Source: a virus
DNA: 21,269 nt
Strand: one strand, 5' to 3'
IMG/VR virus record: IMGVR_UViG_3300037247_000455
Coordinates: 1 to 21,269 of that record
The notes below the pieces were generated by a model. The model was not told the DNA's origin, made no database searches, and saw only the letters and a program-made list of their open reading frames with translations. Made by a program: the position numbers and the translations under genes. This document shows positions 1 through 14,474 of this stretch, in pieces. Every line of letters starts with the position of its first letter. Position 1 is the stretch's first letter.

Positions 1-1848
1 AGTGCCGACGACATAAAGATCACCACGTTTGTCCCAACACCAAGCATCGGCAGCTAAGAATCCTGCCGAATCATCAAGGATCAACAAACCTCCACCAGCA
101 GCAGGATCACCATGCAAATACCAAATTGAATTAGTACAACCAAAAATAACTTTGTCCCTGCTGTACGGCACTGCATCAATGATCGGTTCCCCAGTCTGTC
201 CTGCATCTGCATTATCACTTGCCACAGGTGATTGTGCATCTAATGATATGTAGTTCCAGTCCCAGGGGTTTGCTTGCCTACCAAGATACCAATACTGCGG
301 GTAATCTTTGTCAGCAGTTAAGAGTGGCCTGCCATTCCAAGCCCTACCAATGTTAGCCTGTGTCGGCATTGTTCCAAAGACTGCACTATTGCCATACACT
401 GTCCAGTCATACCAATGCGGCGGTGACACCTGTGCAGTCCCAGTAAACGATATAGCATTGCCATCATCGTCAGTGCCCGTAACTGTTTCAGCCTCAAACG
501 TAGCAGTAGTTCTAAGTTTACCATAAATTGTGACAGCGCTGCTTAACGCCGTCACATAATCCACAACCATTTCAGCACCAGAAGTCCCACCTGTTAATAC
601 TGTTTCAAAATCAGGTGGGTGTGAACCAACATTAGTTGTAGTTATTTTTACATTAACAAAGTCTACTATTTTAAGGTTAGTGCCATTAGCGATAAAACAT
701 TTACCCAGCAACTCAAACATTTGGATAGGCTTGCTTGTGTCAATGTCACCGACAGAAGTATCAAGGCGCACTAACGATTCTGCTGAACCATACCATATTT
801 CATTCCCAACAGCTTCTACAATCCGAGTAACTACTTTTTGATCTGAAAGTGGGGACTGGAAATTTGCACCGTAGTTGCGATACATATAGTCATTGCCTTC
901 AGTGGTCCAATTTGATCCAGTATCTGTACTGAAGGCACCAACTATGTCTGAACGCACAGAAGCGTTTTTAACCCACCTAAGTTTTTCTCCAGAAGCTATA
1001 TCATCAGCATGAAGAACTATAGCATATTTTGTACTTGTTGTCACATCAAGTGGGGTTGAAAGCGAAATTTCAGTCCACACAGCCGCACTACCAGTAGTAG
1101 GAAGTGCATTAGCAAGTGTAGCGGAAAGTGTTCCAGTAGCCAGGGCAGAACCAGTTGGTTTGTGGTTTGCATCTGCCGCATATATGTCCAAAGTAACAGC
1201 ATTTATATCACCAGCACTTTTATATATTGGCACTGCCACACTGTATAAAGTGTAATTCTCACTTGGTATAAAAGAATTAGATGACCACTCATCATCGTCT
1301 ATGGCTGTTCCTGATACAACAGCCCCCTGATGATTATCGTGTAGCCGCCGCCCATCACGCTCTGCAAACATATAATCTTTGGCAGTATCTTCTGTCCAAT
1401 CAGTTCCACTATTTGAAGAATAAAACCTCGAACCACCAGCATATGTGGGGGATGATCCATCGCGCCGCCACCCCCATCTATTGCTTGCGTCTCCAGCATC
1501 TGAGACCGCACGTATTACAACAGCATAAACAGTACCAGCAGTAAGCACATAACCACCATCAAAATCAACCTCAATCCACTCCCCTACTGTAACTCCGCTG
1601 CCCCCATATTCAGGAGCAGTTACCATAGTAGACATTATTAAATCTGTACCATCGGGTTTACCATTACTGTCTACTGCCTGTATAGCAATTTCAAGGTCAA
1701 TATCACTGGCTCCACTCTCACCAATTTTCAACAGTATTGCCATTATTCTATGCGTGGTAGCTATAGTAAAAGTTTGTGCTTCATAATTAGCACCATAGAT
1801 TTCATTATATCCATCATCGCCAGTAATGTAGTTTTGTCTTGTAGCCAT
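1..1848 (-). CDS. Phage tail protein, beta-propeller type with duplicated N-terminal beta domains (partial, 3' end off window)
   Basis: One frame is open from the ATG at 1848 to the window edge, giving 616 residues with no stop. The start overlaps the previous stop (TAATG) and has an AAAGGA site upstream. Residues about 22-162 and 190-325 are two copies of a beta domain. Both run from an aromatic FTI/YTL strand through a KxxG-type turn and an 'NGKPDG'/'NHKPTG' loop to 'YAVVI'/'YAIVL', and close with 'WTEDTAKDYMF'/'WTTEGNDYMY'. After about residue 335 come short W/Y-rich beta repeats (VGNEIWYGS, VIFGCTNSIWYLHGDP), which look like the blades of propeller-type phage tail proteins. The two small coupled genes just upstream are probably part of the same assembly. 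It is probably a tail or tail-tip component. An exact role (tubular protein B-like or receptor binding) cannot be assigned. Confidence 0.75.
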   Translation of the reverse strand, partial: MATRQNYITGDDGYNEIYGANYEAQTFTIATTHRIMAILLKIGESGASDIDLEIAIQAVDSNGKPDGTDLIMSTMVTAPEYGGSGVTVGEWIEVDFDGGYVLTAGTVYAVVIRAVSDAGDASNRWGWRRDGSSPTYAGGSRFYSSNSGTDWTEDTAKDYMFAERDGRRLHDNHQGAVVSGTAIDDDEWSSNSFIPSENYTLYSVAVPIYKSAGDINAVTLDIYAADANHKPTGSALATGTLSATLANALPTTGSAAVWTEISLSTPLDVTTSTKYAIVLHADDIASGEKLRWVKNASVRSDIVGAFSTDTGSNWTTEGNDYMYRNYGANFQSPLSDQKVVTRIVEAVGNEIWYGSAESLVRLDTSVGDIDTSKPIQMFELLGKCFIANGTNLKIVDFVNVKITTTNVGSHPPDFETVLTGGTSGAEMVVDYVTALSSAVTIYGKLRTTATFEAETVTGTDDDGNAISFTGTAQVSPPHWYDWTVYGNSAVFGTMPTQANIGRAWNGRPLLTADKDYPQYWYLGRQANPWDWNYISLDAQSPVASDNADAGQTGEPIIDAVPYSRDKVIFGCTNSIWYLHGDPAAGGGLLILDDSAGFLAADAWCWDKRGDLYVVGT

Positions 1849-2366: not shown

Positions 2367-3671
2367 TTATGCGTTACGCACACCAACTTGTGCAAGCCGC
2401 ACCCAATCAATGCTTAGTTCTGCATCGGCTGAAGTCTGTTCAACTTTTGCCACAAAACTCAAACACATAAGGGCGTTTGGTATGCTTGCAGTAGTCGTGT
2501 TCGTGTGTACTAATTTACCATCCTGATAAAATTTAACACTTGTAAGTCCATCAATAACGATGCCTAACTTTGTCCAAGTGTCGTCAGCAACAGAAGCCTT
2601 ATCTGCACCTTCATTTTCAGCATCACCACGCGAAATGATAGTAGAAAGTTTATCATCGGCAGGACTTCCACCACTATCGCGAAAGAAAGCTGCCTTGTCA
2701 ACTACGTCATCGACAACACCAGCAGCTATGAGCGTGGTATCAACAGCAGCAAGACCAATGTAGTATTGGTCGTCACCAGTGTCTTTCATCTTTACTCTGG
2801 CTTCAAAATAAATTTTCGCGCCGGCAGCAGGAACCACAGCACAGTTTACTAACTGAGCTTCAACACCATCATCAGCAGTGGCATTGCCGGCAGAATCCAC
2901 AAGCATTCCGCCACCAGCTATACTCAAACGGTGAACACCGCCCTCAGTAACCGCTGTCAGTGTCCAATCGGCAGTAGTGATTGTAGTTGAACTACCAACA
3001 TTGGCGTTCGGAATTCTATCCATGAAATCATTTTCATATAGGAATCCGCCACCCAAGTTTCGCAGTGCATTAAGATCAACACCGGCCCAAATTGCTTGAC
3101 TCGGACTATCTTGTGTATCAATAAGAGTGCTTTCACTCATCCCAGCAGTAAGAACGCGCTCAAACCTACAACCAACAATATCGTTGCCGGTGTTTACATA
3201 CAATACATTCCCTGATGTTTGCTTAAAGACTATAAAAGCATCTCCAGAAACCGGAACCTTAGCAGCAGCAACAGCAGTGCCATTAAAATCTACCCAGTCA
3301 TCTACAGTAATGTCACCAGTTGATTGTACATAATCTTCAATTAAACCATACATTTGCTTATCAGTGTCAACTACATAATTGCCAATCAATTCATCGTTTG
3401 AATCAAAGGTCGTTGTTAGTGTGGCATCAATAAGGCTTGTAGCGTCACCACTATCAACAGTTCCAGTTGCAACCACCTCACCGTCTATATGACGGAAAAT
3501 ACAACCTGGAGCAAAAGCTGGGTCTTTAGTGTTGTTGGCCGGGACAGTAAGTCCCATAGCATCAGTAACGCCATCAACTGCTTTATATAACCGAGTAACC
3601 GCTACTTTGGCTACTCGATCACCTATCATATTATCTAAGTGATAACCAATATTTGACCTATTAGCAGGCAT
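2367..3671 (-). CDS. Virion protein: head-fibre-like domain split by an inserted beta module, plus LamG-like domain
   Basis: This 434-residue protein has a clear AGGAG before its ATG. Residues about 36-64 and 155-172 together make one small domain: 'FAPGCIFRHIDG' ... 'VLYVNTGN' ... 'CRFERV'. This matches the pattern PGCIF-x-DG-x-LYVN-x-G-x-C-x-F that I know from phage head-fibre or decoration proteins. It is interrupted at the hairpin turn by a T/D-rich module (residues about 66-150) that also occurs twice in the adaptor at 4819-6108. After 'SPSQAIW', residues about 212-427 form a LamG/concanavalin-like beta-sandwich with 'IYFEARVKM', 'YYIGLAAV', 'WTKLGIVIDG', 'VKFYQDGKLV' and a final 'IDWVRL'. 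It is paralogous to 3725-4771 and 6226-7065. It is probably a capsid decoration or fibre protein that may bind glycans. That role is inferred. Confidence 0.8.
   Translation of the reverse strand: MPANRSNIGYHLDNMIGDRVAKVAVTRLYKAVDGVTDAMGLTVPANNTKDPAFAPGCIFRHIDGEVVATGTVDSGDATSLIDATLTTTFDSNDELIGNYVVDTDKQMYGLIEDYVQSTGDITVDDWVDFNGTAVAAAKVPVSGDAFIVFKQTSGNVLYVNTGNDIVGCRFERVLTAGMSESTLIDTQDSPSQAIWAGVDLNALRNLGGGFLYENDFMDRIPNANVGSSTTITTADWTLTAVTEGGVHRLSIAGGGMLVDSAGNATADDGVEAQLVNCAVVPAAGAKIYFEARVKMKDTGDDQYYIGLAAVDTTLIAAGVVDDVVDKAAFFRDSGGSPADDKLSTIISRGDAENEGADKASVADDTWTKLGIVIDGLTSVKFYQDGKLVHTNTTTASIPNALMCLSFVAKVEQTSADAELSIDWVRLAQVGVRNA
3222..3476 (-). repeat. Inserted beta module, copy 1 (protein-level repeat)
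   Basis: This encodes residues about 66-150 of the 2367-3671 protein. Its landmarks are 'ATGTVDSGDATSLIDATL', an aromatic/D stretch, 'NYVVDT', 'GLIEDY', 'ITVDDWVDF' and a closing 'SGDAFIV'. They recur in the same order in copies 2 and 3 at 5626-5874 and 5083-5334. It sits between 'CIFRHIDG' and 'VLYVNTG', a strand pair that is contiguous in the paralogue at 3725-4771. Confidence 0.7.
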
Positions 3672-3692
3672 TTGTTTTCTCCTGTTCTTTTA

Positions 3693-3709
3693 CGGGTAAA
3701 ACTACCCCG
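3693..3709 (-). other. Intergenic RNA hairpin
   Basis: CGGGTA and TACCCCG pair around an AAAC loop (one bulged C), about 20 bases upstream of the start at 3671. No U-run follows on the transcribed strand. Confidence 0.4.
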
Positions 3710-3724
3710 CTTATTAAATTAATA

Positions 3725-4771
3725 TTAATATTCTACTGAAAGGCTCCACCAATCTATTGAACCTTTGTGTTCAGTAGTGGTAGCACCGTTCTTTAACATA
3801 AAGTAAATACCTAATTCTTCACCAAGCGGCATATCACTTGCAGCTAACAGTACGCCGTCAGCAGTCTGTGCTACACCATCTATGTAAGGCAGTACAGTCG
3901 TCCCATCACAATAAAAACCAACCTTGTTCCACGCTGATGCAGTTGGCACAACAATACCTGCTTTCTTTACAACAGCTTCACCTGTACCGTCACCGTGAAC
4001 AAAATCAATTGCATTGCCATCAGCTTGATCGGAATGAAAACCGAGCCAGTCTTTGCCAGTAACAAGATCGCCAGAGTCAACATCAAGTGAATTTACTGCG
4101 GCAAGCCCTTCCTCTGCCAGGCCAATAAACATAGCAAGGGTGTTATCAGATACAGTATCTCGCCTCACACGAGCTTCAAACCAGAATTTCTTACCTACTG
4201 TTGGCACTATTACACCGCCATCGTGCCCATAAGCTACTATAGAGTCGGCGTTATCATCATTATTACCTTCAGCCCTAAGTACACCGTGTACATCATCGTC
4301 CACTGCTTCATGTGTACAACCAGTAGCTTCAAAAAACGTCAAACCTTTCATACGGTTTGTACCGCCAGCGATGCCATAAATATCACCCTTAAAATCCTCA
4401 AAGTAATGCGAACCCAACTGAGGATTAAGCATGTATTCAAGTTGTGGACAATTAGCCCAAAGTAAAGGACTTGGACCACGACCAGCAGCAGTGCCCTGGT
4501 TCTGTACATCACTTAGAATTGCGGCAGACAAACGTGATGGGATAAGAAGCTCATCAAAGTTAGCTGACGTGTTAGAACCAGCATTTTCATAAACCCTACC
4601 ATTAGTAGTGTCAATAAATATTCCACCTCTTGCATAACCAGCAATCCCATCAGGCGGGATAGCTGTACCAAAGGCTTTAAGCTTTCCACTACCACTGTTG
4701 ATTATTGTCCTTGCACTTCCAGACGCCGGAAAAACCGCGTCTCTTATGTCACTCCATCGAAATCTACTCAT
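3725..4771 (-). CDS. Virion protein: head-fibre-like N-domain plus LamG-like domain
   Basis: The ORF encodes 348 residues, and GGGAAG precedes the ATG. Residues about 38-75 carry 'DGIAGYARGGIFIDTTNG' followed directly by 'VYENAGSNTSANFDEL'. This is the uninterrupted form of the small domain that is split in the neighbour at 2367-3671. After 'GPSPLLW' and 'SHYFEDF', residues about 122-345 form a LamG-like sandwich: 'FWFEARVRRDTVSDN', 'MFIGLAEEGL', 'DWLGFHSDQ', 'WNKVGFYCDG', 'VLPYIDGVAQ' and a C-terminal 'GSIDWWSL'. The gene lies between the adaptor and its longer paralogue in the late operon. It is probably an outer capsid (decoration/head-fibre) protein. No enzymatic motif is visible. Confidence 0.78.
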   Translation of the reverse strand: MSRFRWSDIRDAVFPASGSARTIINSGSGKLKAFGTAIPPDGIAGYARGGIFIDTTNGRVYENAGSNTSANFDELLIPSRLSAAILSDVQNQGTAAGRGPSPLLWANCPQLEYMLNPQLGSHYFEDFKGDIYGIAGGTNRMKGLTFFEATGCTHEAVDDDVHGVLRAEGNNDDNADSIVAYGHDGGVIVPTVGKKFWFEARVRRDTVSDNTLAMFIGLAEEGLAAVNSLDVDSGDLVTGKDWLGFHSDQADGNAIDFVHGDGTGEAVVKKAGIVVPTASAWNKVGFYCDGTTVLPYIDGVAQTADGVLLAASDMPLGEELGIYFMLKNGATTTEHKGSIDWWSLSVEY

Positions 4772-4786
4772 TTTTCTTCCCTTTCC

Positions 4787-4803
4787 CTTGAGTAAAACTC
4801 AAG
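4787..4803 (-). other. Intergenic RNA hairpin
   Basis: CTTGAGT and ACTCAAG are perfect 7-base arms around a 3-base loop. They sit just upstream of the GGGAAAGGGAAG ribosome-site region of the 3725-4771 gene. No U-run follows, so termination is unlikely. Confidence 0.5.
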
Positions 4804-4818
4804 TAGTATAAAGAAAAT

Positions 4819-6108
4819 TTAACTATATGTTACATCCAGCCAACTACGATGTTGACGTGGTTGATGTGTCCCACCATAACCTCTTGGTGATCCTGATTTC
4901 ATTCGTCCAACTGTTCTTGGCCTCATCCGCCCATCAAGTGCGTGTGCCTCCGGCAAGTCCATTTTCATATACTTGCCCATAGCGTCAAATTCTAATGGTC
5001 CAAACTCTTCAGCAGCTTCAACCATAATAGCCGAACGAATAGCTATATCAAACATTTGTCCAACGGGGTGCCTTAATCCATCAGTAACAAAATAACTTGT
5101 ACTTGATGCTGGATCAACAGCAGCCGCTGTGCTCTTGTCTGAATCTGAGAGCCAATCAGCCACAGTAAATGTACAGGTTGTACCGGTGAAGTCTGTCACT
5201 ACAGCGTATCCATTTTTACCAGTGCCATCTTGTGTGGATATAAACCACCCATTAAAATAGTCATCTGGATAAACATTGGCAAAACTTGAATCAACAAGCG
5301 TAGTGCCTGACCCGTCTGATGCAGTACCAGCTAATGCTTTGAGTTTATCAAACCCAATGCGATATGGAAACTGAACTGTCTTTGCTGCCGTTGGTGAGGG
5401 ATTAACTATAAGCTCCCACTTCCTGTTTAACACTGATCGAATAGCAGCCCTGTTTGGGTTGCCAAGTGTTGTGCTAACTGCATTACCATGCCTTATAGCT
5501 GTTTCATGTATCCATTGAATGTGCCCAACGTTTGATTGCTTGGCATATTCAATTTCACCAGCAATCTCACCAAAATTATCAGGCAAAAAATAGCGATGTT
5601 TTTCGCCATTTACAGTTGCTACATCAGTAACTGAAAAAGCATCATTGGCAGAAGGTGTCAAAGAAGAAGCATTACCACAGTAATCCAGCCACGCTGCAAC
5701 AGTGATAGTGCCACCAGACGCAGTATAATCAGTAATCAATGCCTGGATTTGCTGTGTAGTATCGTACACATAATAACTGTTTAAGTCATCATCGGTGTCA
5801 TACGTAGTTTCCAGTGTCGCGTCAACTAAAGTAGTGGCACCACCTGAATCAACTGTACCTGTGGCCTCAACTATGCCAAAGGTTATGCTTGCTAACTGTT
5901 CCTGCCACTTCCAGCCATCGGCAGGCGCGTCGTGAATAAACTTCTTAATACCGTCATTGACTACACCTAAACACCGTTCAAAATCGTGGTAATGAACCGG
6001 AATCATAGCACGTTGTTGGCCGTCAGAACCATAGTAAGCTATCTTAGCGGCTTTAGCGACTAACAACACTAAGTCATAGACACTGTATGCCGAAGTAGGT
6101 TCTGCCAT
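4819..6108 (-). CDS. Head-tail adaptor/connector protein with two inserted beta modules
   Basis: The ORF encodes 429 residues. TTTGGAG precedes the ATG at 6108. The scaffold of the protein is helical at both ends: 'YDLVLLVAKAAKI', 'FERCLGVVNDGIKKFIHD', and 'GQMFDIAIRSAIMVEAAEEFG'. A core of 'YFLPDNFGEIAGEIEY', 'AAIRSVLNRKWELIVNPSP' and 'VQFPYRIGFDKL' recalls the head-tail adaptor proteins of short-tailed phages (LPDDFGG, RWELxxxPxP and YRY motifs, from memory). Two T/D-rich modules (residues about 79-161 and 259-342) interrupt this core: one just before the LPDNF strand, one after the FDKL strand. Both match the module in the 2367-3671 protein. The insertions explain why it is much longer than the roughly 200-250 residues I expect for the family. 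It probably sits under the portal; the modules would face outward. The C-terminus is basic and Gly/Arg-rich. Confidence 0.7.
   Translation of the reverse strand: MAEPTSAYSVYDLVLLVAKAAKIAYYGSDGQQRAMIPVHYHDFERCLGVVNDGIKKFIHDAPADGWKWQEQLASITFGIVEATGTVDSGGATTLVDATLETTYDTDDDLNSYYVYDTTQQIQALITDYTASGGTITVAAWLDYCGNASSLTPSANDAFSVTDVATVNGEKHRYFLPDNFGEIAGEIEYAKQSNVGHIQWIHETAIRHGNAVSTTLGNPNRAAIRSVLNRKWELIVNPSPTAAKTVQFPYRIGFDKLKALAGTASDGSGTTLVDSSFANVYPDDYFNGWFISTQDGTGKNGYAVVTDFTGTTCTFTVADWLSDSDKSTAAAVDPASSTSYFVTDGLRHPVGQMFDIAIRSAIMVEAAEEFGPLEFDAMGKYMKMDLPEAHALDGRMRPRTVGRMKSGSPRGYGGTHQPRQHRSWLDVTYS
5083..5334 (-). repeat. Inserted beta module, copy 3 (protein-level repeat)
   Basis: This encodes residues about 259-342 of the adaptor. 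Landmarks are 'LAGTASDGSGTTLVDSSF', 'DDYFNGWFIST', 'YAVVTDF', 'CTFTVADWL' and 'SSTSYFVT'. It lies between 'GFDKLK' and 'GLRHPVGQMFDIA', which I expect to be adjacent in shorter adaptors. Confidence 0.65.
5626..5874 (-). repeat. Inserted beta module, copy 2 (protein-level repeat)
   Basis: This encodes residues about 79-161 of the adaptor. Landmarks are 'EATGTVDSGGATTLVDATL', 'DDDLNSYYVYDT', 'ALITDY', 'TITVAAWLDY' and 'SANDAFSVT'. It is the closest match to copy 1: the opening ATGTVDSGxATxLxDATL is nearly identical between the two proteins. Confidence 0.7.
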
Positions 6109-6135
6109 AATTATTCTCCAAAGAAAAAGTTAATG

Positions 6136-6160
6136 GGGCGGGCAGAATTATGGCCCGTCC
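6136..6160 (-). other. GC-rich intergenic RNA hairpin
   Basis: GGGCGGGC and GCCCGTCC pair over 8 bases (one G-T) around a 9-base loop, in the 160-base gap between the LamG-like gene and the adaptor. On the transcribed strand CCCATTAACTTTTTC follows, so a weak terminator is possible. The adaptor ribosome site starts shortly after. Confidence 0.5.
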
Positions 6161-6225
6161 ACAACCATAATCTATTTACCGGTAGGACTCTTTACTGCGG
6201 CCTCCGCCCCATCACACTGTCTTAG

Positions 6226-7065
6226 TTAAATCCCACTTGCAAACTTTTCTGCTCCGTAACGAATCCAATCAATCTTGAGATCATCGGCAGAACCAGCAAG
6301 AGCTTTTAGGCCCAGAAGAATCGTCAGCGGGGCGTCCAGCTTATTGCCTGTGAGATCATCAATATTCAAAGTCGTGCCAAGTGCAACACCATCCAGATAA
6401 AATGTTACTTTCTTCTTACCATCAAACCGAAGGCCCAGCTTCATATAAACATCGTCATAAGTAGTTGTTGCACCAAAGGTCCGCACTGAAGCCTGAACAA
6501 CAGTTGGGGCACCGCCATCACCTGTTTGATGATAAACAGTGTCCAAATCTTCCTGATTGGTCCCATCACACTTCGTATGAAAACCAATAAAATCATAATC
6601 GTTTATTGTAGACGATCCTGAACTATCATCTGTAATAAACTCAGCCGCAAGAAGTTCGGTAGCACCAAGACCAAAAATGGTTGATACATCCGCAGAAACA
6701 TCGTCCATTTTCAAGCGAGTCTCAAACCAGCAACGTCTGCCACTATTCAGCTTGATAAGCTCATCCTGGAGAATGTTACACCCGATGATAACCTCATCAT
6801 TTGCACCACCACTACCACTCAGATTTATTACGCCAGCAGCCTCATCAGCCACAACTGCTGTATCAGGATTAGTACCTGTTACCAACCACTGATTACCTCC
6901 ACCCACATTCTGAACATCGTTAGCAGTAAAGTTGCCAATAAAGTCTTCCCAAATATGGACATAACGCCCAGGCTGTGCTAAAACTGCACCGGAAGGAAAA
7001 TCCTTCCAAATGTTTTCACTTGGTTCAGCAGCGTTGCCAGCAACACCATATCTTTCTACACTCAT
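6226..7065 (-). CDS. LamG-like virion protein directly downstream of the major capsid gene
   Basis: The start was set at the ATG at 7065 because AGAGGAG lies 8 bases upstream. The frame is open 11 codons further, but that part overlaps a strong hairpin. The result is 279 residues. After a short N-terminus with 'PSENIW' and 'YVHIWEDFIGNF', the rest is a LamG/concanavalin-like sandwich: 'CWFETRLKMDDVSAD', 'TIFGLGATELLAA', 'DFIGFHTKCDG', 'YMKLGLRFDGKKKVTFYLDG' and a final 'LKIDWIRYG'. It lacks the small PGCIF-like domain of its two paralogues. Its place right after the capsid gene fits a decoration protein. Glycan binding is possible from the fold but not shown. Confidence 0.78.
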   Translation of the reverse strand: MSVERYGVAGNAAEPSENIWKDFPSGAVLAQPGRYVHIWEDFIGNFTANDVQNVGGGNQWLVTGTNPDTAVVADEAAGVINLSGSGGANDEVIIGCNILQDELIKLNSGRRCWFETRLKMDDVSADVSTIFGLGATELLAAEFITDDSSGSSTINDYDFIGFHTKCDGTNQEDLDTVYHQTGDGGAPTVVQASVRTFGATTTYDDVYMKLGLRFDGKKKVTFYLDGVALGTTLNIDDLTGNKLDAPLTILLGLKALAGSADDLKIDWIRYGAEKFASGI

Positions 7066-7162: not shown

Positions 7163-8263
7163 TTAATGTGACTTGTGCATTACGAAACCAACCTTTTTCA
7201 TGTTGGTACACAGGTTCTGGTGTGCACCATCAAGGAACACAGTAAAAGTAGTATGCTGTGTTCTGTCAGTCATCGGCTCAGATTCAATCATCCAGTAACC
7301 TTCATGGACGAACGGAGTAAAGTAACTATAGTCAATGCAATAGATAGGAGCAGTAGCAGTCCCAGAAGCAGGATCAACCACATTAACCAACTGACCAATA
7401 GGAACAACAGGCAGCCTATTAAGCATGACCAAACCACCATCATCCACAACCAAGCCACCCAAAACTTCTTTGCCCTTATGGTTATCATCCTTGGCATCAG
7501 CATAGTCCATCAGTTCAGCCACAACATCAAAGTCACTATATATACGCTTCTGTGCCCGACGCTCGGCCTGTGAAGGATCAGTAAGGATGATCGGAGCTTT
7601 GAATTTCGTCTGCATCATTGCAAGGCGGAATTTCTTAATAAAATCAGGGTTGATAGCCGTGTAAAGTGAAACCCAGTTCCGCCACTTTTCATTGGTTGCA
7701 GCGTCAATATTAGCACAAGTGGTGCCAGTGCTGCCGTCCTGGTAAGTGACAGTCTGGCCAACAAAGCCATCCGTAGAACTACCAGAAGTCATGTGCTTCA
7801 AGTAATAAGGCACACCATAAGGATACAGTGTGTCACTTGCATTGGTTGGGGTCAGCCAAGCGCGGCTTTCAATCAAGTCAGCCAGTGCCCATGAACCATC
7901 AACACGACGCTCCTTCATTATATCAACAATCCTTTTGGTGTTATTTAAGTTTCTCCGTATTTCCAAGTCGTCCCATCCATAGTAAGTGCCAATACGGACC
8001 CAAGGCACCTTAATCGTAGACATCAAATCTTCAACTGAAGGCTCATCAGTATCATAGTTGTAACGATACCGTGCATGTCCACTATTATCGAACATAATCT
8101 TGCGTTCGATCTCATTACCACCGTCAACAACCATCCTCTCATTTTGGTAAATTCTGGTGAACTCATAATCTTCGTTCGTCCAGTTTACTTCAAAATGATT
8201 ATCCGGCAGGTCGTTCAGGGTTAATGCAATAAAATCGCCCAACTCACTCATTTTTACAGACAT
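7163..8263 (-). CDS. Major capsid protein (HK97-fold type)
   Basis: The ORF encodes 366 residues. GAAAGAAG precedes the ATG at 8263, which is better than the second ATG four codons in. The gene follows a scaffold-like gene and precedes decoration/adaptor genes, the standard position for a major capsid protein. Within the protein, 'FTRIYQNERMVVDGG' (N-arm), 'WDDLEIRRNLNNTKRIVDIMKERRVDGSWALADLIE' in the helical spine region, 'NPDFIKKFRLAMMQTKFKAP' and the late 'PVVPIGQLVNVV' fit coat proteins of short-tailed phages that use a separate scaffold. 'YPYGVPYYLKHM' also resembles the NGLPYWL-type segment of such capsids. No prohead-protease-type delta domain is apparent. The assignment rests mainly on context and general pattern. 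Confidence 0.82.
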   Translation of the reverse strand: MSVKMSELGDFIALTLNDLPDNHFEVNWTNEDYEFTRIYQNERMVVDGGNEIERKIMFDNSGHARYRYNYDTDEPSVEDLMSTIKVPWVRIGTYYGWDDLEIRRNLNNTKRIVDIMKERRVDGSWALADLIESRAWLTPTNASDTLYPYGVPYYLKHMTSGSSTDGFVGQTVTYQDGSTGTTCANIDAATNEKWRNWVSLYTAINPDFIKKFRLAMMQTKFKAPIILTDPSQAERRAQKRIYSDFDVVAELMDYADAKDDNHKGKEVLGGLVVDDGGLVMLNRLPVVPIGQLVNVVDPASGTATAPIYCIDYSYFTPFVHEGYWMIESEPMTDRTQHTTFTVFLDGAHQNLCTNMKKVGFVMHKSH

Positions 8264-8298: not shown

Positions 8299-9462
8299 TT
8301 AACCATCAAGGGGTTTGCCCGCCCTTAAATTAGCAAGTCGCTTCTCTGTAACGCTTGCAAATTGTTTATCTGTCATTTTCTGCCCAGGTTTTAGTATAAC
8401 CGCAGGCGTAATTTTCGTACCTGAAGCACGCAATGTAACACCCTTTGCACGCTTCTTTGCTTTATCCATGATGTCTTTACGCACCATTTCAGTTTGTATA
8501 TCTGCTGTGAGTACAACATGTGCACTCCGTAAAGCTTCAGGGATGCTCATATTACCACCACGCAGCCGCACACCAGCATCAATGTCATGTGCCATATCAA
8601 TTAGTTTACCCCTGTTCAACTTTTGTTCAGCTGTAAGGTGTTCAACAGTTATAAGTGGAAAACCATTGGCATCTTTACCAGAGCCGTAAAACTTTTCATA
8701 CGCCACCAACGCAGGATCAGCAAACCATTGACCTAACTGCTGTACTAACGCGTAACCCTGTTCCTGCTTTGCAACCTTTGTTTCTTGCGTTCCCTGATTC
8801 TGTTGCGTTTGTGTCTGTACCTGTATCTGTTCTTGTCGCTGTGAAAGTTCAACTAAGGCATTATTAAGTTGTTCGACTACAACACCAGCAGCTTCGCCGT
8901 GTTCTTCCTTATACGCTTTAACATCAACAAAACCTTTTGGCTTTTCTGGTGATTGTACTGGAACAGCACGCGATTGTTCCAAAGCCTCTCTGTCGGCATC
9001 AAGTTGTTTCTTGACCCGGCCCTGTTCAGCAAATATTGTATTCACAGATACTTGATCTTGGTGCATTTTCTCAAGCACCTGCCGCGCAGCATCTTCGTCA
9101 AGTTTCCAAAGTGCAGCAGTCTTTTCCTTTTTCCATCCGTTGTGTTCAGCTGCTCTAAGCAACTTTTCAGGAATAACTAACTCTAAATCTCCGTCGTCAT
9201 TTCCTTCAGTATTAACAACGCCTTCATTGTCATCCGTGTCATCAGCCGCATCATCTTCCTTAATCACAGGGGTAGGTGTTGGGTCTTCATTAGACTCATC
9301 AGCTTCCTGGGGATCAGGTACAACGACAGGTTCTGGGTTTCCGCCCATTGCCTTCAGCCGTTCCGCTGTCTTAGCGAGTATTTCAGGACTATCATACTGT
9401 TCTGCATCGTCCTGTACCATTAGTTCGCCTGTAGCGGTTCCATCAATTTTCGGTGCTTTCAT
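8299..9462 (-). CDS. Capsid scaffolding protein
   Basis: The ORF encodes 387 residues. AGAGGA lies about 8 bases before the ATG at 9462. Its composition is typical of a scaffold: a very acidic N-terminal half (residues about 50-100, rich in D, E and N), a Q-rich helical middle (for example 'VVVEQLNNALVELSQRQEQIQVQ') that should form a coiled coil, and a basic C-terminus ('KKRAKG', 'KPGQKMTDKQFASV', 'RLANLRAGKP') that could bind the capsid protein inside the procapsid. It lies 35 bases upstream of the capsid gene. There is no protease motif, so scaffold release rather than self-cleavage is likely. Confidence 0.8.
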   Translation of the reverse strand: MKAPKIDGTATGELMVQDDAEQYDSPEILAKTAERLKAMGGNPEPVVVPDPQEADESNEDPTPTPVIKEDDAADDTDDNEGVVNTEGNDDGDLELVIPEKLLRAAEHNGWKKEKTAALWKLDEDAARQVLEKMHQDQVSVNTIFAEQGRVKKQLDADREALEQSRAVPVQSPEKPKGFVDVKAYKEEHGEAAGVVVEQLNNALVELSQRQEQIQVQTQTQQNQGTQETKVAKQEQGYALVQQLGQWFADPALVAYEKFYGSGKDANGFPLITVEHLTAEQKLNRGKLIDMAHDIDAGVRLRGGNMSIPEALRSAHVVLTADIQTEMVRKDIMDKAKKRAKGVTLRASGTKITPAVILKPGQKMTDKQFASVTEKRLANLRAGKPLDG

Positions 9463-10821: not shown

Positions 10822-12636
10822 CTAAAACCCCTCAGCCATTTCTGATTGTGCTTGATTGGCCCCTATTTGTGCCTGTTGATTAAAACCTTGCTGCTCATTC
10901 ATTACTGGCACTGCTGACGGATTACCATTGTTTTGTATTGCGCCTGCCACACTGCCTGTTGCCTTGCCTGCTTTACCAGGATCAAGTCCAGCGTGTTCTT
11001 CAACAAACTTCAACCGTTCCGTAAATGCAGGATCGTCAACTACTTTAATCATTATATCAGGAATACCCATTTCATCTGCGGCATTAATCAAAAGCTGCAT
11101 ACCGTCAAACCTTTGTCCAAGCTGTTGAAACAACATCTGAGCGTTAGCTATGCCAGGAATTATGTTTACCAGCATTTTTTCAAGTGCCTGCCGCCTATGT
11201 TCTGGCTCAACTGCCTGCATAGACCGCTTAACTATTTCAAAAGTCAAACTCAAAAAATTGCCGTTGACTTCTTTTGGTGTCAACACAACCTGTCGCGGTG
11301 CCTTACCTGTTTCGCGCACTATTGATGGCATATTCAAAAATGGGTCATAATGGAAAAACCATGCTTGATCGTTGCTGATTCCAGCCTGTACATCGTAAAT
11401 TAAACCGCGTGCATCCTCCTGCACTACTGATGCATTGCTTTGCAGCGTCCTAACAGCAGTAGCTGTCTTAGAACCACCACCAGTTTTCAGGCCACTCATC
11501 TGGTCTACACCACCTGAAAGGTAGTTGAACCAAAACTGTGTCTGCTGGACCATCTTTTCATTTTCAGGATTGCCGCCGCCATACGACACAACCTTTACAC
11601 CGTCTGGATCAGGTGTCCTGATGCTCTGACCATTATATGCGTCAGCTACTGCCTGTGCCACATCTTCCATGCCAGGTTTGTACAACAGCAAATCTTTTTG
11701 ACTATCAGCCTGATCCATCAGTTTAATATACATGGAGTTAGCCATCTTGTTTAGTGTACGCCACGCCGACACTGGTGCCACCGGGAACGGGTTATTAGGA
11801 ACAGGTGGCGTAAGTGAACCAAACCGATATGGACCGCGTGCCGGCCCATAATAATCCTGTACCTTTAAGAAGTCGTCAAAAGTAGCTTGCTTAGGATCGG
11901 GCACATAAACCACTGCATCGGCTTCAGGCAAATATACTTCACCTACTCGAACATAATCCTGCGCCTCTATCATTTCAAGTGTTAGTGCAGGGTCACGTGT
12001 TACTCGCGCGGCTTTTTGCTGGTCATTTATTCCGCCATCCCACGCTGAAGGTAATGACTTCACAAGTGCAGTATTCCAGCCCTCGACGTCAAGTAAATCC
12101 TGTCGCCTAACTGTAGTGAAATGTCCTGTTAATGTTGATTTATTCAATGCTGTACAATACGGGTCAAAAAAGAAATCATCTATGCTTATGAGGTCGGTAT
12201 AAAGCTGCCCCGGATCAATGTCTTGGTTATAGCCATCAGGTATTAGATTGCCATCAGCAAATATAGAAATCTTGAAAATCGCAAGGCCACATAAGATCAT
12301 ATCAACAACGCCTGCACGCATGATGCTCTTCATGCCGATTTTCTTGTGCAACTCATTCAGTGCAGCACTAAGCAAACTTGCATAATTGGACTGCTCTAAA
12401 ACCGGCGTAGTAACTCTATTTATGCCTGCATTCATAACTAAGTTTGGCACCCAAGTTCTCAACGCTACAAAAATCAAATTAATTGGGTATTCTCCGGCCA
12501 TGCCGCGCGGTTTAACATAATGATCCCCTACATATTCTCTAAGTGCTTGCATAGCTGCAATGCGATAATCCTTAACGCGCTCGTGTCCTTTGCGTACAAG
12601 CTCACTTACTTGATTTGCTCCGAGTTCAGTTGGCAT
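10822..12636 (-). CDS. Portal protein
   Basis: The start was moved to the ATG at 12636, where TAGGAG lies 5 bases upstream. It is 11 bases after the terminase stop. A longer GTG reading would overlap the terminase and has no site. The protein has 604 residues, typical for short-tailed phage portals. It has an N-terminal helical part, a central wing with 'DLISIDDFFFDPYC' and 'VRVGEVYLPEADAVVYVPD', then 'FPVAPVSAWRTLNKMANSMYIKLMDQADSQKDLLLYKPG', where a long stem helix is expected, then 'SGLKTGGGSKTATAVRTLQSNAS', common in portal proteins around the tunnel loop. A Q/N/G-rich C-terminus follows. Its place directly after the large terminase supports this. It ends with TAG. Confidence 0.85.
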   Translation of the reverse strand: MPTELGANQVSELVRKGHERVKDYRIAAMQALREYVGDHYVKPRGMAGEYPINLIFVALRTWVPNLVMNAGINRVTTPVLEQSNYASLLSAALNELHKKIGMKSIMRAGVVDMILCGLAIFKISIFADGNLIPDGYNQDIDPGQLYTDLISIDDFFFDPYCTALNKSTLTGHFTTVRRQDLLDVEGWNTALVKSLPSAWDGGINDQQKAARVTRDPALTLEMIEAQDYVRVGEVYLPEADAVVYVPDPKQATFDDFLKVQDYYGPARGPYRFGSLTPPVPNNPFPVAPVSAWRTLNKMANSMYIKLMDQADSQKDLLLYKPGMEDVAQAVADAYNGQSIRTPDPDGVKVVSYGGGNPENEKMVQQTQFWFNYLSGGVDQMSGLKTGGGSKTATAVRTLQSNASVVQEDARGLIYDVQAGISNDQAWFFHYDPFLNMPSIVRETGKAPRQVVLTPKEVNGNFLSLTFEIVKRSMQAVEPEHRRQALEKMLVNIIPGIANAQMLFQQLGQRFDGMQLLINAADEMGIPDIMIKVVDDPAFTERLKFVEEHAGLDPGKAGKATGSVAGAIQNNGNPSAVPVMNEQQGFNQQAQIGANQAQSEMAEGF

Positions 12637-12647
12637 TAGTGCTCCTA

Positions 12648-14474
12648 TTAACGACCGCGCCACCCGCGCTTGTCTCTCTTAGCTTTTCTTTTCTTACTTT
12701 TCCAAGCATCATACCTGCCACCCCACGAATTAAACGGAGTAGGTGGCTTTTTTAATCTTGGCTCTGACACGTCCTCGTCTTCAACAGTCAGCGCGTCAGC
12801 GATAACATGATCGCCGTGTAACTTCTTCTCTGATGCAGTTGCTTCAACAAGATCAGCCGGGCCGACACCGCCATCTTTATTATAAATGTATTGCTTTGCC
12901 TGATCCAACGCAAACTCAGAATGATTAGTTACCCGCCCAGTTTTTAATGCACGTTCGTATGCACGCAAGAGCAATTCCTTGCCCTCCCGTGTCATCTGAT
13001 AACCATACTTCTGCATTTCACCCTTTGCACCTTGAATTTTCTCAACAACGGCACCAAGAGTTTTGGTTATATAATAATGCGGGTATTGAAAAACCTGAAC
13101 CAGCAACCGGCCTAAATCCCACCCAGGCCCATTCTTTTCCCATTTTAAGTATGGGATTCGTTGGGGGTTTGCTCCTCCAACCCACAAAGCCAGTGCAACA
13201 ATAACTCTTGCGAACTCATGTGGAGGCGTGTTGCGACAAACCCACTTGGCAATAATTTCGCCAGTTTGCTTGCACTTGATTGAGACAACCGATTCAGATG
13301 CTCCCTGTCCTTGTGAAGTGTCAATTCCAAAAATATAAGTAAAACTCTGGTCAGGTCGCCCTTTGATAAGCTCGATCCACACTTGCAGTTTTCCATCTTT
13401 CACCTTCACAATATGATAACATTTCTGATCTTTTGCCTGAATCAATTTTGGGAGTTGATCATCAGCAATTCCATGTTTAAGTATTATGTTGTGTGTTGAA
13501 ATTGATGATCGGGCATAAAACGCAATGTGCTTATTAAGTTCACCCAACTCAAAGAACAAGTCACCAGCCTCAAGGTCAATGGCGTAATATTCCTGAGCCA
13601 CAGCTTTTTGCGTACACTCTTCAAGAACCTTCTCAATGAACGGAGAAGAAATCTTATATATTTTAGTGACTTCATCCTGAACAACGAACCGACCTGCACC
13701 CTTCAGCGGGTGATCCCAGAACATCATCGAGAACACGTCAATCTGTCCACTGTTCTTCCAGCGACTAAATTCAGTGCCCGGCCCAGCCACTGTAGAGTTC
13801 ACAAGTCTGCACGGCGACACGTCATAGGTTGCTGTGCGGATCGCGCTGCCATTGTCAACCTTGGCAAATTCATCTAAAAACAGGATCGCACATCGGTCAG
13901 CCGACATAGCATGTTTTGTGGTTGACTCGCCACCTATTGTAGAATTATTCAGTGTGTTGTAAATCCGCATTGATGTGCGGTTATCGCGTCCTTTGACCAG
14001 CACGCCAGGTGGGCGCATCCACTCTGGTAAGAATGTGTTCAGGTAATCATGTTTGTAAAACAAACTCTTGGCAATCGGACTGTCAACATAAATCTCAGAA
14101 CGTGACATTTCACGTATTTCAGTGTTGGGCCTAAACAACCACAACCAGTGCAAAAACGCTACACCAGCCCACGAAGCCCCCATGTCCCTTGACTTGTCTA
14201 CTAAACCTGACTTACCACTTAAAAAATGATCCTCAAACCAGTTAAACAAATCATCTTGAATCTTCCAAGTTATAAATGGCCAATGCGTGTGTTTAGACGG
14301 AACACGGCCAGATGCAACGGTCAAGTCAACTTCAAATTCGTGCTTAGTCCACGAAAAAGTATTAATCCAATACAGACAACTATCTGTGCACGCACGTATA
14401 AGATCAGCCTGCAACACTGGGTCGCGTTCAGCAGCCTTTAGAATCTTGTTGCGGTAGGCCAAGTTTGCTTCCAA
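12648..14474 (-). CDS. terL: Terminase large subunit (packaging ATPase/nuclease); true start probably upstream
   Basis: The listed 608 residues begin at a TTG. The ATPase domain has a Walker A variant 'KSRDMGASW' (residues 94-102) and Walker B 'CAILFLDEFAK' with D201-E202. The RNase H-like nuclease has 'FGIDTSQGQG' (D385), 'WEKNGPG' (E446) and 'HGDHVIADAL' (D555, D560). It cuts and pumps DNA into the procapsid with the portal encoded next. The frame stays open above the TTG, back to a TAG at 14592, and encodes family-like sequence ('TPFPVDREFWTCSKTGLVVP'). No ATG, GTG or TTG exists there. A strong AGGAGG is placed 8 bases before an in-frame ATA at 14577-14579, which would give 643 residues. 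The C-terminus is basic. Confidence 0.9.
   Translation of the reverse strand: MEANLAYRNKILKAAERDPVLQADLIRACTDSCLYWINTFSWTKHEFEVDLTVASGRVPSKHTHWPFITWKIQDDLFNWFEDHFLSGKSGLVDKSRDMGASWAGVAFLHWLWLFRPNTEIREMSRSEIYVDSPIAKSLFYKHDYLNTFLPEWMRPPGVLVKGRDNRTSMRIYNTLNNSTIGGESTTKHAMSADRCAILFLDEFAKVDNGSAIRTATYDVSPCRLVNSTVAGPGTEFSRWKNSGQIDVFSMMFWDHPLKGAGRFVVQDEVTKIYKISSPFIEKVLEECTQKAVAQEYYAIDLEAGDLFFELGELNKHIAFYARSSISTHNIILKHGIADDQLPKLIQAKDQKCYHIVKVKDGKLQVWIELIKGRPDQSFTYIFGIDTSQGQGASESVVSIKCKQTGEIIAKWVCRNTPPHEFARVIVALALWVGGANPQRIPYLKWEKNGPGWDLGRLLVQVFQYPHYYITKTLGAVVEKIQGAKGEMQKYGYQMTREGKELLLRAYERALKTGRVTNHSEFALDQAKQYIYNKDGGVGPADLVEATASEKKLHGDHVIADALTVEDEDVSEPRLKKPPTPFNSWGGRYDAWKSKKRKAKRDKRGWRGR

Follow-up and report, generated by a model that had tools for sequence, protein, structure and literature searches.

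How does one small domain come to stand in two unrelated genes of a single viral genome, and what does it do there? The question is raised by the window analyzed here, the whole stretch of 21,269 bases of the IMG/VR virus record IMGVR_UViG_3300037247_000455. A module of ~85 residues occurs in it once in a lectin-type protein (P0001) and twice in the presumed head-tail adaptor (P0002, sites 1 and 2). We consider it likely that the module is a plug-in β-barrel related to a domain of tail hubs, that the copy in P0001 derives from adaptor site 1, and that the module would bind glycans.

The three copies are homologous. Local alignment of the three pairs (BLOSUM62) gave scores of 208, 98 and 113, well past chance as judged from 1000 composition-preserving shuffles per pair (best shuffle 65, 58 and 73; z = 25.6, 10.5 and 11.5). 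The first pair is ~50% identical, and the remaining two are far more diverged. The scores bear out the initial annotation, which had placed the module once in the protein at 2367-3671 and twice in the adaptor; its outer coordinates, 3222-5874, lie within a few codons of the first and last module. It had also called the hosts two unrelated virion proteins. Unrelated they are, whereas it is presumed that they belong to the virion and that one of them is an adaptor. That the likeness of these T-, D-, G- and A-rich segments is compositional (T/D/G-rich β sequence) or convergent is scarcely credible, since the scores lie far above every shuffle, a profile of the module matches 93 reading frames and the predicted structures agree.

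In the AlphaFold models the order of secondary structure elements is common to all three copies, which are thus not unrelated folds. The copy in P0001 comprises strands 64-71, 74-76 and 79-81, helix 85-88 and strands 99-102, 107-115, 120-123 and 145-151. The site 1 copy contains strands 82-85 and 93-95, helix 97-102 and strands 113-116, 121-129, 134-137 and 157-161. In the site 2 copy, strands 258-262 and 270-272 are followed by a short helix and strands 289-293, 300-308, 313-316 and 338-342. The mean predicted local distance difference test (pLDDT) scores of 10-residue blocks are 90-98 for residues 71-150 of P0001 and mostly ~70-90 for the adaptor copies. The module would be a folding unit of ~85 residues, independent of its hosts, a β-barrel built from three strands, a short helix, a strand, a long strand and two further strands. 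Scans of Pfam and PHROGs with the module found no family. The best match of the module profile in a PDB sequence search was protein K of the type II secretion system (whole-sequence E = 6e-4, best stretch 0.13), which we judged to be a chance match.

Judged from the sequences of its relatives, the module in P0001 is an insertion. The empty site can be read within the window: the paralog P0003 has 'GIFIDTTNGRVYENAG' where P0001 has 'CIFRHIDG', the module and 'NVLYVNTG', and this comparison at the hairpin had been quoted correctly before. The pattern of the host domain, 'TEDGIL.CYGTTVP...YAPGCIFI..DG..LYVN.GT..S.NF', was found in ~50 reading frames of related contigs. It often makes up an entire protein by itself, 82-102 residues long and encoded directly after the adaptor. 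The module is present in only 3 of these ~50 relatives, namely P0001 and two tandem relatives on contig L026, and in all three it lies between both strands of the same hairpin. Insertion into surface loops would be tolerated because the ends of the module lie at the hairpin turn. With P0001 itself as query, a scan of viral contigs that tries short exact peptides only gave no match.

The direction of the transfer was read from a tree of 96 module copies, in which columns are few and many forks are unresolved. The three copies of the P0001 type group as a single clade (support 100/99). It lies inside a set of nine rows (100/99) together with the site 1 copies of the window and of L002, L026, L089, L139 and L120, and this set in turn lies inside 33 rows that are otherwise entirely site 1 (100/100). 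The tree is most simply explained if adaptor site 1 was copied once into the neighboring gene and that gene was then duplicated in L026; this agrees with the earlier suggestion that the module spreads between genes. We propose that in the lineage of the window recombination placed a second copy of the site 1 module in the hairpin turn of the neighboring lectin-type protein, and that the spread would be due to ordinary recombination. The P0001 and adaptor copies have no significant similarity at the DNA level (best 99 bases, 66%, E = 0.5), and no direct repeats were found flanking the three copies. Since DNA similarity has decayed and no flanking repeats are left, the recombination mechanism is not visible. 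The same two observations, together with the lack of element genes, make it very unlikely that the domain was carried by a mobile element of its own or by recombination targeted to flanking repeats, as repeated insertion at hairpin turns of different genes might otherwise suggest.

For the adaptor, relatives were gathered by scans with the module profile and with a module-free host profile (80 reading frames, later 84). Occupancy was counted in 73 full-length frames; some contigs are close kin, so that not every count stands for a separate event. Two modules are present in 58 of the 73, one in 7, none in 4, and three were scored in 4. Within the adaptor clade both modules are thus near-fixed parts and not rare visitors. 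Short, empty loops replace the module at site 1 in six contigs (L035, L044, L037, L066, L064, L100) and at site 2 in four (L109, L107, L106, L110). In these latter four (at 6001-7035), site 1 holds an unrelated insert of ~65 residues, and another insert unrelated to the module occupies site 1 in L065 (6167-7417); the inserts of L109, L106 and L065 matched no Pfam family. Three contigs (L128, L123, L124) carry the module duplicated in tandem at site 1. In the adaptor of L132 (5932-7518) a second small domain, 'GDVVTISGTTSYDGTF' (GDVVTISGT..YDGTF), is nested inside module 2; it has no Pfam match either. Empty sites therefore exist for all three positions, and the segments are not strands native to the hosts and shared by every homolog. 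The profile scans turned up homologous hosts with and without the module. Judged from these relatives, phages exchange the barrel in and out of their particles.

The module is not confined to these two families. In L068 it interrupts a head-tail adaptor of the Ad1 type (phrog_477, E = 1.3e-18), and in L052 it is recognizable both in a gpJ-like protein (phrog_31) and in a gpL-like hub. A nozzle-like protein of L067 contains it, and one or two copies are found in a sheath-like protein of 1735 residues (L147, 1787-6994), a nozzle-like protein of 861 residues (L180, 3620-6205) and a protein of 813 residues (L069, 6512-8953). The module thus behaves as a plug-in virion domain: its hosts are non-homologous, and a given position is filled in some homologous hosts and empty in others. 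An isolate-phage DNA collection contained no relative of the adaptor module and, for the L067 type, a single Microcystis phage; a scan of a genome contig collection with the module gave no match. Among predicted viral structures (BFVD) the P0001 model had many matches with a probability of ~1.00, to tail fibers, pectate-lyase-type and gpJ-like proteins. Beyond tailed phages, similar predicted folds were seen in Mimivirus LCMiAC01, Mimivirus AB-566-O17 and invertebrate iridescent virus 3.

One could argue that the modules are native to their host families and vertically inherited, with the empty sites as secondary losses. An old presence in the adaptor is suggested by the majority that carry both copies and by the largely separate tree groups of site 1 and site 2 copies. 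For P0001, however, the site is filled in so few relatives, the copies are nested within those of adaptor site 1 and the host domain can make up a whole protein by itself. The same module also interrupts the unrelated adaptor family of L068 and the gpJ-like protein. We regard this explanation as rather improbable.

Which known domain is the module related to? Foldseek ranked 8vjh_D, the hub of phage Chi, first for the adaptor model (prob 0.99, E = 7.5e-3) and 8rk3_O, a hub-length chain of the JBD30 baseplate, first for the P0001 model (prob 0.99, E = 0.078, 85 columns). For both models the best match is thus a solved hub-domain fold for this ~80-residue barrel, with weak E-values. A phmmer search with the hub of L052 found the DUF2163/gpL-type hubs in the 8vjh and 8rk3 entries as well as those of RcGTA and R4C. 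In the L052 hub the module profile (7e-5) and PF09356 (2.7e-24) match overlapping residues, and the hub of L093 matches the module profile at 0.002. An hhalign comparison of the module with a hub profile gave E = 1.4e-4 over the full length; the probability of 53% with L052 included is suggestive only. Most likely the module shares a superfamily with the 'oligosaccharide-binding' insertion domain of gpL/DUF2163 tail hubs.

In the R4C hub this name was given to residues 162-243, which lie inside a split ion-binding domain and were possibly acquired horizontally (PMC10276861). The counterpart in the RcGTA hub, also named oligosaccharide-binding, lies within a split iron-sulphur domain (PMC7296036). 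Both domains (Rcc01696 residues 168-249 and vBDshSR4C_014 residues 162-243, overlapped by PF09356, Phage_BR0599) resemble the module in size. The hub domain is further similar in its fold as found by Foldseek and in being an insert that splits another domain; the L052 hub carries a recognizable copy of the sequence. Identity between the module and the JBD30 hub domain is ~20%. The setting differs: the hub domain sits inside the iron-sulphur domain of the tail-tip hub, whereas the module occupies two loops of the presumed adaptor and one hairpin of a lectin-type protein. No cysteine-bearing iron-sulphur domain was found around the three copies, their hosts are not hubs, and Pfam gave no match of PF09356 in P0001 or P0002. 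According to the RcGTA authors, a structural relative of the hub domain, the insertion domain of LKA1 gp49, has been shown to bind sugars (PMC7296036). Its host protein is a tail spike, unlike the hosts of the module.

The genomic setting of the hosts is given in Table 1. The genes, all listed on the minus strand, are transcribed in the order terminase, portal, scaffold, capsid, P0004, P0002, P0003, P0001 and nozzle-like protein, which fits a short-tailed phage. Foldseek matched P0002 weakly to the neck proteins 9k09_d (prob 0.57) and 7qoj_D. From gene order and these weak fold matches we presume that P0002 is a podovirus-type head-tail adaptor and that both P0001 and P0002 are part of the virion. 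The lectin domain of P0001 matches PF13385 with E = 2.2e-5, slightly short of the curated cut-off. Three lectin-type paralogs (P0001, P0003, P0004) flank the adaptor in this one genome; in relatives their number and N-terminal domain vary, and in L089, L139 and L120 the neighbors of the adaptor are without the hairpin domain. The nozzle-like protein contains an extra repeat-like segment, 'LTGGTSGAEMVVDYV...'.

Table 1. Genes and module copies in the window.
Feature	Position	Strand	Remarks
Terminase large subunit	12648-14474	-	
Portal	10822-12663	-	weak SU10-type match
Presumed scaffold	8299-9462	-	
Presumed major capsid protein	7163-8263	-	
P0004	6226-7098	-	290 residues; third lectin-type paralog, without N-terminal hairpin domain and without module
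P0002, presumed head-tail adaptor	4819-6108	-	429 residues; two modules; name based on gene order and weak fold similarity
Module copy, adaptor site 1	5614-5877	-	P0002 residues 78-165
Module copy, adaptor site 2	5074-5340	-	P0002 residues 257-345
P0003	3725-4771	-	348 residues; P0001 paralog without module (empty site inside same genome)
P0001	2367-3671	-	434 residues; module inserted in the N-terminal hairpin domain; concanavalin-A-like lectin domain at the C-terminus
Module copy, P0001	3210-3482	-	P0001 residues 64-154; in β-hairpin turn of N-terminal host domain
Nozzle-like β-propeller protein	1-1848	-	open-ended, 616 residues

Based on these hosts and on the hub relatives we propose the following function. 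The module would project from the neck and from the particle-bound lectin-type protein, at the neck in the copy number of the ring and otherwise in that of the lectin-type protein, which would provide many weak binding sites. Binding would be weak and multivalent, most likely to surface glycans, in line with what has been suggested for the hubs of RcGTA and R4C. The hub literature and the company of lectin-type domains both point to glycans as the putative ligand. We infer surface exposure and function alike when we speak of a decoration.

Several observations weigh against the account as a whole. No sugar-binding residues were identified in the module, and the name of the hub domain itself rests on a structural resemblance to the LKA1 gp49 domain (PMC7296036). 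No PDB match from Foldseek reaches E 0.001, and F1/V-ATPase barrels are also among the fold matches, so the module may be a common small barrel. The hhalign probability drops to 17% without the bridging L052 hub, and an adaptor-core control reached a similar raw score (22.6) but a low probability. Sequence profiles of P0002 matched no solved adaptor in the PDB. The host parts are poorly predicted in both AlphaFold models; closure of the host domains was therefore judged from relatives. Finally, most adaptor relatives have both modules, so loss and not gain could explain some of the empty sites in that family.

The main rival to binding is a structural role at the neck. The modules might make the neck ring wider or brace it, or offer docking sites for fibers or between adaptor and lectin-type protein, and not bind the host cell at all. 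Of the 73 adaptors, 58 have modules at both sites, as expected for a role in assembly, and related copies occur in two gene products encoded close together. Relatives that lack one site or the other exist, however, an unrelated insert can take the place of the module at site 1, and the neighboring lectin-type protein is usually without the module, so that pairing is not required. A structural role is possible in our view, if somewhat doubtful. Returning to binding, we tentatively suggest that the neck adaptor serves to display small domains, which are exchanged at two standard sockets (barrel, other insert, tandem, nested), and that host-surface binding may evolve at the neck and spread to lectin-type proteins by domain copying.

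Immunoglobulin (Ig)-like domains such as that of Hoc are small β domains found in many unrelated virion proteins and absent from close relatives, and weak binding has been proposed for them. The module resembles them in behavior. They have a different fold and are mostly terminal additions or strings, whereas the module is inserted into loops. The module was rejected as an Ig-like domain: Pfam gave no Ig profile, and the leading fold matches are to hub domains and small barrels. Domain mosaicism of phage proteins, in which folding units are exchanged between proteins of different function, has been described (PMC10684548); the exchange is of the same kind, and adaptors are not among the classes given there. 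Exchangeable β domains in phage virion proteins are thus established. New are a domain family without annotation, the presence of two exchangeable sites in a neck adaptor and a copy that can be read from donor to recipient.

The head-tail adaptor is usually regarded as part of the conserved core of the particle. Here it has exchangeable domains at two defined loops, and these loops are found in nature empty, filled, with a replacement, with a doubled module or with a nested domain. The finding links a sequence family outside Pfam and PHROGs to the presumed sugar-binding domain of gene transfer agent and siphophage hubs. It identifies places in a neck protein where insertion occurs naturally, and makes domain exchange in the virion a process that can be followed step by step.
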